Source: Phycisphaerae bacterium
GTDB taxonomy: Bacteria > Planctomycetota > Phycisphaerae > UBA1845 > UTPLA1
DNA length: 64,000 nucleotides
Direction of reading: 5' to 3'
Assembly (NCBI GenBank): GCA_019636475.1
Contig: JAHBXN010000003.1
Span: forward strand, 124,001-188,000
A program made the translations under genes and the position numbers. The notes under the pieces are model-generated. The model made no database searches. It was given only the letters and a program-made list of their open reading frames with translations, and had not been told where the DNA came from. Positions 11,754 through 45,137 of this stretch are shown in pieces. The number at the start of each line of letters is the position of its first letter. Position 1 is the stretch's first letter.

Positions 11754-12725
11754 ATGTTGCCCAAACCGCCCAAGGGATATCTCGAGCGCTCCAAAGCGGA
11801 CACTGTGCTGCAGCACTACATCATGGCCAGTCGATTCGACGGCCCTGAACCGCTGCCGAAGACGGCCGATCCGTCGCAGGTCAATGCGTGGATTCAAAAA
11901 ACGCTCGAAGCTGAATCTCCCAAGAGCCGTCATGTCGCCAAGTGCATGCGACTGATGCGTTTTTTTGACCTTCGCTCGCATGCCGAATTGGTGACCAAAT
12001 GGATGCAGCGCCGGGACAGCGAGCCGGACGAATACAACCGGGCGATTGTCAGCCTGACGATTCTGGCTGAATTTGGTGATGATGCCCTGGCCGCCAAAGC
12101 GAACGAATACTATCAGCACCTGGCCGGCAAGCCGTCGGTCGATCAACGCTTCGAACAGATGATTGACGTTTATTTTTACCTGAGCGACAAATCCGATCAG
12201 AAGTGGATCGTTGATCCGCTTGAGAAGAAGATGAAAGTCCTCGAGCCGAACGTCGAGAACAGCGTCGACACGCAGGTCGCCTATCTGAAGCTGAAGAACT
12301 ACCGTGATGACCGCCTTCCGCGGATTCTGGAAGCGAAGGCCAGACGACACGAAATACTGAAGATTGCCGACGCCAAGCGCAGAAGGCAGGAGGTCGTGCG
12401 GCTCTACCTCGGGCTCGAGACATACGCTCATGTTGATTTCAGGAATTGGGCCGTGATGATCCTGCAGCGCGACTGCAACGCGACGACGCCGGATGAACTT
12501 TCCGCGGCCTTCATGCTCATGCTCGACGCAATGATGTCTACGACTGCCGTAGAGGGGCTGGAGGAGGAGGACAAGAAGGGCTGCGTTACATCCTGTGCAC
12601 GAGCCGTCGAGTTTTATGGTGGCCAACTGAATGAGAAGCAGTCGGAGTTTGTGAAGAAGAACCATCAGGATCAGGCAGACATGCTCTACTGGGAAACAGA
12701 ATCCAGGCCCGAAGCTGACGAGTAG
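11754..12725 (+). CDS. Alpha-helical partner of metalloprotease copy 2 (putative immunity or adaptor)
   Basis: This 323-residue soluble protein is paralogous to 8568-9569. It starts MLPKPPKGYL and shares AKANEYYQ-like, DQKWIVDP, FRNWAVMILQRDCN and TSCARAVEFYGGQL blocks. It has no signal peptide, lipobox or membrane segment and is predicted cytosolic. It begins 15 bases after metalloprotease copy 2. If it is an immunity protein, its cytosolic location would have to be reconciled with the LysM modules of the effectors, which suggest a periplasmic target. A chaperone/adaptor that loads the effector on VgrG/PAAR is therefore an equally good reading. Confidence 0.7.
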   Translation: MLPKPPKGYLERSKADTVLQHYIMASRFDGPEPLPKTADPSQVNAWIQKTLEAESPKSRHVAKCMRLMRFFDLRSHAELVTKWMQRRDSEPDEYNRAIVSLTILAEFGDDALAAKANEYYQHLAGKPSVDQRFEQMIDVYFYLSDKSDQKWIVDPLEKKMKVLEPNVENSVDTQVAYLKLKNYRDDRLPRILEAKARRHEILKIADAKRRRQEVVRLYLGLETYAHVDFRNWAVMILQRDCNATTPDELSAAFMLMLDAMMSTTAVEGLEEEDKKGCVTSCARAVEFYGGQLNEKQSEFVKKNHQDQADMLYWETESRPEADE

Positions 12726-12793
12726 TTTCGGCGTCATGTGCGCGCTGCTGCTGGATTTTGATTGATCGCGAATCGGAGTTGAAAGACAGCGAT

Positions 12794-14506
12794 ATGGCAT
12801 CACCGGACGAAATGGCATCCTATTACGAGGGGCATCCCGATCCCGACGACTCCACAACCTGGGGCGGAGCCGAGAACTTCGACGATGCCAAGTCCAATTT
12901 CGAGTCAGCCAAGGGACCGGCGCCGACACCCTCACCGGTGGCCGGTCCTCCGTCCCCCGGCGCCGGCATGCCCGCGGCGCGCGTCGGCGATCAGTGCGCC
13001 CACGGTGGAGCAATCGTTGGTCCCGGCGCGCCGACGGTCCTGATCGGGAATATGCCGGCCGTTCGCGCCATGGCGGCGAGTGACACAGCGTTGTGTCCGA
13101 TGTTCGACGGCGTGGTGCCGCACGTTTCCGGCGTTATCCTCAAGGGCAGCAATTCAGTTCTCATTGCCAATTTTCCGGCAGCGCGTGTCGCCGATCCGAT
13201 CGGTCCTCCCGCCAAGTGTGCCGGTAATCAGATCGCGAAAGGATGCGACACCGTTTTAATCGGCGATTCGGGCGGCGGGGGGGGTGGCGGCGGCGGCGGG
13301 GGGGGTGATGGATTCAGCGGTGGCGGCGGCGGAGAGGAAGAAGCCGAACAGGCACAGGAAGAAACCTCACAGACGCAATCGGAATACACTGAGAGTCAGC
13401 CTGCGGAAGATCCGCCGGGAGAATCCACGCAAAATGTCGCGCAAGGCACGCACTGGCTCGAAATCGAGATGGTTGATGAGGCGGAACAGCCTGTGGTCGG
13501 AGAGCGCTACGAAGTCACACTGCCGAACAGTAAGATCGTGAAAGGGGGACTAGACTCGCGCGGCATGGTTCGTTTTCAGGGAATCAAGGACCCCGGCGCC
13601 TGTCGTATTCAATTTCCAAATCTGGATCTGGCTGCTTGGGAGCGATGGCGGCCGATGCCGCCTCAGACCGAAGCGCCAGAGGGTGCGCCCGCGCCTGCGC
13701 CTCCCTTATTAGGCGAAGAGGAAGAAGGCCCCGTGGAGGCTGGCCCGGATGCCCGCAATGGGAAGTGGCGTATCGTGAGGCAGGGCGAGTGCATTTCGAG
13801 CATCGCACGCGAAACGGGCCATTTCTGGACGACGATCTGGGACCACGGTTCAAACACCGAACTGAAGCGTCGCCGGAGCAATCCCAATGCGCTGTTACCG
13901 GGAGATGCAGTCTTCGTTCCGGATAAGCGACCACGAGAAGAATCAGGCAACGTCGATCAGCGTCATAAATTCCGTCGCAAGGGCGAACCGACATGGTTCA
14001 AGGTTCAACTTTTGCAGGACGGTGATCCGCGAGCCAACGAAGAATACAAGCTCGACGTGGATGGAAAGCCGAAAGACGGCACCACCGACGACCAGGGCCG
14101 CGTGAAGGTGCCAATACGCGGCGATTCGCGACGAATTATCCTGAGAATCGGATCAGATACTTACCGATTCACGCTGGGCGTGATAAATCCTTTGAATGAC
14201 ATCGCCGGCATTCAGATGCGCCTTGCGAATCTCGGATTTCCGCCGGGTCGCATTGATGGCATTATGGGCCCCAAGACACTCGCGGCTTTGAACCAGTTTC
14301 GACAATCGGTTGGATTGCCGCCATCGTCTGAATTGGATGATGCCACGATCCAGAAACTCAATGAAGCCCACGACGCCATGAAATTCAACGCGATTAAACG
14401 CGCGGAGAGCGAACCAAAGATCGTTGACGACATGCCGGGAACGGCTGTGGGTGACGAAGAGTCGCCACAAGGTAATAGTGATGCGGAAGGGGGAGCCGGG
14501 GCCTGA
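12794..14506 (+). CDS. PAAR-tip protein with shared beta domain, LysM and peptidoglycan-binding domain
   Basis: The 570-residue protein carries an N-terminal PAAR domain (about residues 55-160, with repeated GxxAARVGD and TVLIGN/VLIANFPAARVAD strands) that would cap VgrG. A poly-Gly linker follows, then an acidic stretch. Next come a domain matching the VgrG C-terminus (HWLEIEMVDEAEQPVVGERYE, bases 13450-13640), a LysM module (GKWRIVRQGECISSIA to LLPGDAVFVPD), an HKFRRKG segment and a small beta domain. It ends with a PG_binding_1 domain (IQMRLANLGFPPGRIDGIMG). ATG 12794 is preferred to the in-frame TTG 12758, which would add 12 residues; GGAG at 12775 is rather distant for either. It may be a specialised spike tip that binds target-cell wall. 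Confidence 0.85.
   Translation: MASPDEMASYYEGHPDPDDSTTWGGAENFDDAKSNFESAKGPAPTPSPVAGPPSPGAGMPAARVGDQCAHGGAIVGPGAPTVLIGNMPAVRAMAASDTALCPMFDGVVPHVSGVILKGSNSVLIANFPAARVADPIGPPAKCAGNQIAKGCDTVLIGDSGGGGGGGGGGGGDGFSGGGGGEEEAEQAQEETSQTQSEYTESQPAEDPPGESTQNVAQGTHWLEIEMVDEAEQPVVGERYEVTLPNSKIVKGGLDSRGMVRFQGIKDPGACRIQFPNLDLAAWERWRPMPPQTEAPEGAPAPAPPLLGEEEEGPVEAGPDARNGKWRIVRQGECISSIARETGHFWTTIWDHGSNTELKRRRSNPNALLPGDAVFVPDKRPREESGNVDQRHKFRRKGEPTWFKVQLLQDGDPRANEEYKLDVDGKPKDGTTDDQGRVKVPIRGDSRRIILRIGSDTYRFTLGVINPLNDIAGIQMRLANLGFPPGRIDGIMGPKTLAALNQFRQSVGLPPSSELDDATIQKLNEAHDAMKFNAIKRAESEPKIVDDMPGTAVGDEESPQGNSDAEGGAGA
13277..13305 (+). repeat. Two 8-G homopolymer runs in the PAAR poly-Gly linker
   Basis: Runs of eight G occur at 13277-13284 and 13298-13305, separated by TGGCGGCGGCGGC, within codons for a poly-glycine linker. 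Homopolymers of this length are prone to replication slippage, and several closely spaced G tracts can form a G-quadruplex. A one-base change would end the frame before the LysM and peptidoglycan-binding domains. Confidence 0.7.
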
Positions 14507-14521
14507 GCCCGGAAAACTGTT

Positions 14522-15685
14522 ATGGCCAGCCCTCCATTTCTGATGACCGACAAGCCGCAGCCGTCCCTGCAGATGATGCGCACCAACTCGACGGGCGGAC
14601 ACGGGAATACGATCAACAAAGTCACTCTGCCTGCCGCGGAAATTACGGTCACATACCGAGCTCAGTTCCGTTTCCATATGTTCTACCGCGTGCCGGTCGA
14701 AACGCCGTGGTGGAGTGGGAGTATCGGGAAGGAGATTCTCCAATCCGAGGTGGACAAAGGTACTACGCTGTATCTACCACCCGACGATCGTGTGGTTGTC
14801 ACCGATGCCGAGCACTATGCAACCGTGAAAATCGGCCGGCAGAGCATCAGACTCGCACTTGGGGAATCAAAGGCTCGAGGACGACCGGTCTGGTTTCCAG
14901 TCAGTTCGAAACTGCCAGCCGAACTGAATTCCCCAAGTACCGGCTGGAAATGGAAGCCGCCGACGCTGGATAACTTCGGTGCGGCAAACCAATGGGGCAT
15001 CCGGGGCGATCTCACCTTCGTCGCCGATCCGTGGGGCGAGCCTGGCAAGCCCAAAACATTTAAGATGGTCACTGTCTGGCAGCGCTGGAGGCCGGACCCC
15101 AAGACCGGCAAGAACCGATTCACTCCGGACATGTGCACCCTGCCGCCTGGCACCTTCGCGGGATATCCGCAGGCCATGCCGAAACACTGGGATTCTTTCC
15201 CCGAGTTTTCCAAGGATGGGAAGAAGACGAACAAGGACTATCGAAAAGAATTCCCCGCGATCTGGGTCGGCTATTCATGGGAACCTGATGATGTACCGCC
15301 ACCGACAACCGGCGGAAAATCAAAACCGCCCGAAGGGCCCTGGAAGGAAGGCGTCCTGGGTTGGATTCTGAAGAATCCAAAATCCAAGGGACGCGCTCAC
15401 GGCGTGTATATTCACCCTGGCAATTCACCCAACTGGTTTGAAGGATGTCTCGCGCCCGGCCCCGCGGATAAACAGACGGAATGGGGCTTCATGGCGCGTG
15501 AGGACACCGCCCGGGCCATGTACGAGATTCTGGCTGACGTCGGCATTTCACAATCAGATTACGTCAACAATTATCAACCGCCGTCCCAAAAACTGCGTAA
15601 GTGGTTTATCATTCGGGTCGAGGCATCCCCGAAGAGCGCCGTGACAGACGATGGCTGGATGACCTCGCGAATCTGGCTGGACTAG
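14522..15685 (+). CDS. Putative T6SS cargo with DUF5675/L,D-transpeptidase-like C-terminus
   Basis: The protein has 387 residues and no signal peptide. The N-terminal two thirds are unrecognised and rich in Trp, Pro and Lys. Near residues 300-325 is HGVYIHPGNSPNWFEGCLAPG-like sequence, i.e. an H-x-G-N-x-P...GC arrangement. It resembles the DUF5675 family of phage and T6SS proteins and, more loosely, YkuD-type L,D-transpeptidases, whose catalytic Cys lies in a GC motif. It begins 15 bases after the PAAR gene, so it is probably co-expressed. A cell-wall-active effector is a reasonable hypothesis, but no immunity gene follows immediately. Family assignment is by eye only. Confidence 0.55.
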   Translation: MASPPFLMTDKPQPSLQMMRTNSTGGHGNTINKVTLPAAEITVTYRAQFRFHMFYRVPVETPWWSGSIGKEILQSEVDKGTTLYLPPDDRVVVTDAEHYATVKIGRQSIRLALGESKARGRPVWFPVSSKLPAELNSPSTGWKWKPPTLDNFGAANQWGIRGDLTFVADPWGEPGKPKTFKMVTVWQRWRPDPKTGKNRFTPDMCTLPPGTFAGYPQAMPKHWDSFPEFSKDGKKTNKDYRKEFPAIWVGYSWEPDDVPPPTTGGKSKPPEGPWKEGVLGWILKNPKSKGRAHGVYIHPGNSPNWFEGCLAPGPADKQTEWGFMAREDTARAMYEILADVGISQSDYVNNYQPPSQKLRKWFIIRVEASPKSAVTDDGWMTSRIWLD

Positions 15686-25903: not shown

Positions 25904-26270
25904 TAATTGCGCGTCGAGCATGGCGGGGTGATTTAGAGGTGAGAGTTCTCTGGGAGCCCTGGTTGCGGGTATTCCTAGCTGAACGGCAGCTGCGGCGTTT
26001 TAAGGCGTCGTGGGAAGGAAGCCGCAGGCAAAGCTTCAGCCCGACAAACGCGAAGCGCATAGGAGGCGGTCGTTCAACGGACGAGCGGAAACTGTCAATC
26101 GCCAGAGCCTCAATGAGCAGGCATCGGAGTTGCTTCGGGCGTCTGGATCCTCGACGCCTCGCGTGGACGACCGTCATCAATTGCGATATGTTTATTCAAT
26201 CGTGCCGCATTTCACAGATGCGGCGATTCCGAATGAGCTGGTCTCCCAGGGGAAAGTCCGGAGCTGAACC
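25904..26270. other. Intergenic region upstream of the subtilase
   Basis: About 370 bases lie between the putative aldolase terminator and the subtilase start. Open frames here run into the subtilase in another frame and have no family resemblance or ribosome site, so I treat them as chance. Apart from the GGAG at about 26260-26263 serving the subtilase, I see no clear regulatory element. Confidence 0.4.
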
Positions 26271-44552: not shown

Positions 44553-45137
44553 ATGACCTGGATTCAGACCATTTCTGACGACGATGCCGACGGCCAAATT
44601 GGTGAACAGTTTGAGGCGGCTCGGAGACGTGCCGGCCGAGTGTACAACATCGTCCGATCGATGTCGCTCAATGCCCGCGCGCTGGGTGATTCGATGGCGA
44701 TGTACCGGACGCTTATGTTCGGAGCGTCGCCCCTGCCCCGCTACGTGCGTGAAATGATCGCGACGGTCGTCAGCGGCGCCAACGCGTGCTTTTACTGAGT
44801 GCAGTCTCACGCGACGGACCTCCGTGCCGAGGTCGACCACATGAGCGCCGCCGAAGCCGATGCGTTTGTGCATGCGGTCGTTCGCGATTGGCGGTCCGCG
44901 GGCGTTGAGCCGAAGGATGCCGCGCTCCTGAACTACGCCGAAAAACTGACCCATCTCGCGGCGAAAATGGAAGAATCGGATCTGAACCGTCTCCGCGCAG
45001 TGGGCTGGGACGATGTCGCCATTCACGACGCGACACAGATCATTGCATATTTCAACTATATCAATCGAATCGCCGAAGGGCTCGGTGTGGAGCTTGACGC
45101 CGGCGCGCCGGTATGGGGCGGGGGGAAACCCGATTGA
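44553..45137 (+). CDS. AhpD-like peroxidase-related protein, probable selenoprotein (in-frame TGA = Sec82)
   Basis: Read through a single TGA at 44796-44798, this is one 194-residue frame of the carboxymuconolactone decarboxylase/AhpD superfamily (peroxidase-related branch). The family active site is CxxCxxxH; here it is Cys79-Phe-Tyr-TGA-Val-Gln-Ser-His86. The stop replaces precisely the second redox Cys, giving CxxU. Conserved context lies on both sides: EMIATVVSGANA before, SHATDLRAEV after, and the later LNYAEKLTHLA and IAYFNYINRIAEGLG of the fold. A 6-bp hairpin lies 18 bases downstream. Without recoding the product would end at residue 81, inside the active site. AhpD-like selenoproteins are known in other bacteria. 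A nonsense mutation or sequencing error is the alternative. Confidence 0.82.
44817..44834 (+). promoter_or_regulatory. Candidate bacterial SECIS hairpin
   Basis: GACCTC (44817-44822) pairs perfectly with GAGGTC (44829-44834) around the 6-base loop CGTGCC. The loop starts 25 bases after the TGA and its second base is G. Both features agree with the loose bacterial SECIS rule (short stem-loop within about 16-37 bases, G early in the loop). Confidence 0.6.

Follow-up and report, generated by a model that had tools for sequence, protein, structure and literature searches.

The 64,000 nucleotides of Phycisphaerae bacterium DNA analysed here (the window) contain a gene for an AhpD-like protein of family TIGR01926, in which an apparent stop at codon 82 is almost certainly read as selenocysteine (Sec) in the active site, to judge from the sequence, its relatives and the genome around it. 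We put at about 96% the probability that the gene specifies a thiol peroxidase or disulfide oxidoreductase with the redox pair Cys79-x-x-Sec82, UGA 82 being decoded through SelB and a hairpin behind it. An apparent nonsense codon would then be functional, and a gene that a plain listing of open reading frames (ORFs) divides would make one protein; the wider set of relatives supplies a comparative series for studying the constraint that a bacterial SECIS puts on a protein and the exchange of Sec for Cys. Features are listed in Table 1.

Table 1. Features of the candidate selenoprotein gene, in window coordinates.
Feature	Position	Strand	Basis and details
AhpD-like peroxidase-related protein (TIGR01926)	44553..45137	+	Translation, Pfam, NCBIfam match, alignment; 194 aa with TGA 44796 as Sec
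In-frame TGA, predicted Sec82 of C79-F-Y-U82-x3-H86	44796..44798	+	Translation; aligned codons of relatives
SECIS-like hairpin	44817..44834	+	Stem 44817-44822 (GACCTC) with 44829-44834 (GAGGTC), loop CGTGCC 44823-44828

The initial annotation had described one continuous frame interrupted only by a TGA in place of the second cysteine of CxxCxxxH, with family sequence conserved on either side and a hairpin downstream, and had proposed that the TGA is recoded as Sec. Translation bears this description out: the frame has 195 codons, with a single internal stop at codon 82 (peptide context NACFY*VQSHATDL) and a terminal TGA at 45135-45137. The TIGR01926 “peroxidase-related” profile covers residues 3-179 of the readthrough protein, both flanks of the TGA included (132.6 bits, cut-off 81.8), and Pfam CMD matches residues 49-92. 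A 13-row alignment, in which U is written as C, has no variation at columns 79, 81, 82 and 86. The hairpin is present as described, and the proposed recoding draws support from the sel genes, the codon found in relatives and the hairpin itself.

Across the class, 107 of 298 genomes gave a match, from which we took 71 rows, including the window gene and its own paralogue; weaker rows were left out, as were some short or contig-edge rows (e.g. G272:C533, G275:C69, G188:C199 and G236:C164:6697). The codon aligned to codon 82 was TGA in 51 of these rows, TGC in 18, TGT in two and anything else in none. From named genomes, at least 531 relatives were reported and 80 were kept, and in all 80 kept loci codon 82 is TGA. 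Most of these 80, kept from at least 531, bear labels of Gemmatimonadetes or of Chloroflexi (Anaerolineae or other); Planctomycetes also occur, as do two bins labelled Proteobacteria and a small number of others. The joint occurrence of TGA at this codon and the hairpin is more than chance.

Bacterial SECIS elements were assessed using limits drawn from the available part of a recent review (PMC13188914): a loop of 3-9 nt, an upper stem of 4-16 bp, a G in the first two loop positions, a distance of 16-37 nt from the UGA and an MFE ≤ −7.5. The window hairpin lies within them, having a 6-bp stem, a 6-nt loop with G second and a spacing of 24 nt from TGA to loop; the 57-nt stretch containing it folds at −16.8 kcal/mol, a value for the whole stretch rather than for the hairpin alone. 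No SECIS family reached its gathering score in an Rfam scan of the whole 64-kb window. Hairpins of at least 6 bp within the same limits occur in 35 of 38 close class TGA rows, in 79 of the 80 named loci kept from at least 531, in 3 of 13 more distant TGA rows, in 2 of 20 Cys rows and in 7.8% of base-shuffled sequences. TGA and Cys rows are less sharply separated at 5 bp: 37 of 38 close and all 13 distant TGA rows have a hairpin, as do 79 of the 80 named loci (kept from at least 531), 8 of the 20 Cys rows and 21% of shuffles. In the 13 distant rows the hairpins are different ones, and several of them have GGTC within or beside the loop.

The close relatives form a set of 118, comprising the 80 named loci kept from at least 531 and 38 class rows, one of which is the window gene, with 111 distinct 57-mers; since the named loci L113, L116 and L189 have the same sequence behind the TGA as class rows L025, L023 and L029, some of the 118 rows are not independent of each other. 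In 115 of the 118 (named part kept from at least 531), the pattern GAYCTCCGKNNNGAGRT plus a final C, T or G stands at a fixed offset. Over the 111 distinct sequences, with the same limit on their named part, stem columns 24-37 hold C-G in 92, U-A in 15, U-G in two and an unpaired or other combination in two. The codon for Leu90 is CTC in 111/111 and that for Glu93 is GAG in 111/111 (named part again kept from at least 531), against backgrounds, in 38 of these genes, of 28% CTC among 523 other Leu codons and 59% GAG among 262 other Glu codons. One pair of the stem covaries and two codons are frozen. Among the 37 distinct class rows, cells changed on both sides of the stem numbered nine, where shuffles gave 2.8, and no shuffle of 500 reached either this count or the covariation score; the number of pairs with double-sided change (one) and of pair types (three) did not exceed shuffles (487 of 500 as high). 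Three of seven stem pairs are invariant in these rows, and the seventh is formed in just 14 of 37. The covariation rests on one stem pair, which counts against the Sec reading. Shifting the partner by 1 to 3 columns lowered paired cells in the same 37 rows from 89.6% to 30-48%.

The window's own genome assembly (18 contigs, 4.41 Mb, 95% complete) contains selA, selB, selC and selD, the four genes for which the initial annotation had suggested a search. On contig C4, selB scores above its profile cut-off and selA starts directly behind it (C4:367437), while the tRNA-Sec on C9 reaches 66.1 bits and is called tRNA-SeC, anticodon tca, by ARAGORN. The selD gene (L019 1396-2631, minus strand; C2:328684-329607 in the genome) has a single in-frame TGA, in the context CAGUAGK, and itself appears to be a selenoprotein gene; Sec commonly occupies this active-site position in SelD proteins. 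A second TIGR01926 gene (L002 1498-2037; C11:71773-72294; 160.1 bits) has TGA at the same codon (NGCLYUMESH) and a hairpin of the same kind. When the genome was searched with an RNA model trained on the SECIS of 38 rows, both of these TIGR01926 genes among them, two strong matches appeared (63.9 and 50.7 bits), which were the two input genes; the next match scored 15.4, and no further selenoprotein gene was found in this genome by that model.

Machinery was then compared between 36 genomes with the TGA form and 14 comparison genomes, 13 of which were read as Cys-only, the other (G240) being included as having no internal stop. For tRNA-Sec the threshold was set at 60 bits, since in the window's own genome ARAGORN identifies as a tRNA-Leu a match that scores 47.6 bits. 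Thirty-five of the 36 TGA-form genomes have selA (33 above cut-off and two, G248 and G257, as contig-edge fragments below it), 33 have tRNA-Sec above 60 bits and none is without both. One of the 36 lacks a selA match and three lack a strong tRNA-Sec match, which counts against the Sec reading. In the comparison set, selA and a tRNA-Sec above 60 bits each occur in one genome of 14, in both cases G096; at the Rfam gathering score of 47 bits, tRNA-Sec passes in 5 of the 14. Two Cys-only genomes were left out, G142 with selA and G270 with no selA row, and with them selA stands at 2 of 16. Fisher p-values for the machinery comparison ignore relatedness. In the class survey, the assembly of G236, which has a completeness rating of 98%, contains the TGA form and a tRNA-Sec but yielded no match to selA.

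Three other explanations of the interrupted frame were weighed. A pseudogene or a sequencing error, with the TGA a real stop or an artefact, might seem to be suggested by damage in some related copies: L070 has one further TAA in the matched stretch, and several class rows are short, cut or contain TAG. These are a minority, however, and relatives otherwise keep the TGA at one and the same codon across separate assemblies (51 of the 71 rows in the class; all 80 of the named loci, kept from at least 531), with protein conserved on both sides of it and stem codons conserved as well, and we regard decay or error as extremely improbable. No more credible is the idea that the frame encodes two separate proteins, an 81-aa piece and a 112-aa piece from GTG 44799, as the ORF listing, which gives both, would have it; a single TIGR01926 profile spans the two pieces, the CxxC(x3)H motif would fall partly in each, and relatives keep the frame together with TGA at one codon.

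Genome-wide reassignment of TGA, or readthrough as Cys or Trp without Sec, has in its favour that Cys homologues show cysteine to be functional at codon 82. Against it, TGA terminates 23 of 40 long non-overlapping ORFs in the window, more than TAG (15) or TAA (2), the genome has tRNA-Sec and sel genes, and in close rows hairpins of at least 6 bp accompany TGA rather than Cys. We consider this explanation very unlikely, if marginally less so than the other two, and favour decoding of codon 82 as Sec.

For that decoding we envisage the following route. SelA would charge tRNA(Sec), using selenophosphate from SelD, and SelB, bound to the hairpin that lies 24 nt beyond the UGA, would bring Sec-tRNA(Sec); with Sec delivered in this way, UGA 82 would be read as Sec and translation would continue to TGA 45135. 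Peroxidase activity is predicted from family membership, and Sec82 and Cys79 most likely make up the redox pair, whether the enzyme is an AhpD-like peroxidase or a thiol oxidoreductase. By analogy with AhpD, Sec82 would attack a peroxide and Cys79 would then form a selenenylsulfide with it, to be reduced by a dithiol donor. While the frame, the position of the TGA, the hairpin with its conservation and the full sel set can be read directly from the DNA, it is from these and from the family that we infer Sec decoding, activity, substrate and electron donor.

How Sec and Cys forms are related was examined on a tree restricted to the 71 class rows, with a midpoint root chosen purely for display. 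On this tree eight Cys rows from family f8 sit among Sec rows, adjoining TGA rows L072 and L052 (starred branches), a placement that is suggestive of Cys having taken the place of Sec as the machinery was lost. A different case is L063 of genome G096 (G096:C16, L063 412-468), a Cys form with a 7-bp SECIS-like hairpin behind its TGC in a genome that keeps selA and tRNA-Sec; here a recent Sec-to-Cys change is possible. More broadly, the ‘DLRxE’ branch of TIGR01926 may be an obligate, or nearly obligate, selenoprotein lineage across several phyla, whose frozen SECIS (the pattern given above, at fixed offset in 115 of 118 rows, named part from at least 531) dictates Asp-Leu-Arg-x-Glu-Val/Ile, the Cys forms of f8 being secondary reversions with loss of selA and selC and G096 a possible intermediate; we hold this proposal tentatively, at slightly less than even odds.

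The initial annotation also remarked that AhpD-like selenoproteins exist elsewhere, and such proteins are indeed already catalogued. In the parts of these sources available to us, a 2026 review has the entry “AhpD-like protein, TIGR01926, CxxU” in its list of known selenoproteins (PMC13188914), a 2005 survey of the Sargasso Sea reports 27 AhpD-like CxxU sequences, given as COG2128 (PMC1088965), a further study counts 299 AhpD-like 1 and 70 AhpD-like 2 selenoproteins (PMC2398784) and another lists AhpD-like selenoproteins for sequenced bacteria (PMC1794560). Going by those same parts, the COG2128 sequences of 2005 are probably the same as the review's TIGR01926 entry, and between that entry and the window gene—same NCBIfam family, CxxU motif and SECIS just behind the UGA—we saw no essential difference. 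As the kind is in print, the gene is a genuine finding of a known selenoprotein type and of low novelty. Selenoproteins have been reported in Planctomycetes (PMC4807772), in a paper whose main text does not contain the words alkylhydroperoxidase, peroxidase or carboxymuconolactone; our literature search found no paper joining selenoprotein, Planctomycetota and SECIS, nor the exact phrase ‘AhpD-like selenoprotein’. Among protein families, NF041238 (AhpD_rel_CFYUT, alkylhydroperoxidase-related (seleno)protein) is a related AhpD-type group with CFYU in its model name, but the window protein scores 73.3 bits against it, short of the 175 bits set as equivalog cut-off, and its match is confined to positions 151-337 of 357. 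The solved AhpD-like proteins 6k40, 2pfx, 3c1l and 2oyo are homologous over most of the profile in a profile search.

The transketolase, GT87 and DUF1697 genes neighbouring the candidate matched only the window's own among the 71 class loci (flanks were short in 40) and were found at none of the 80 named loci kept from at least 531 (flanks up to 2 kb); with no neighbours shared, linkage gives no clue to function. Elsewhere in the window, seven other TGA-interrupted frames remained as candidates after an overlap filter. Pfam searches with five pieces of three of these identified one candidate as TatD and MlaE, two families lying either side of the TGA, and left one upstream piece without a match. 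In another of the three, at 12719-15682, PAAR and peptidoglycan-binding domains occupy a 595-codon frame ending at TGA 14504, and the 392 open codons in frame behind it have no Pfam family at E 0.001. At 25994-26140 lies a weak match to a group II intron fragment (RF02001, 32.5 bits where the gathering score is 32), the sole Rfam match in that scan of the whole window.
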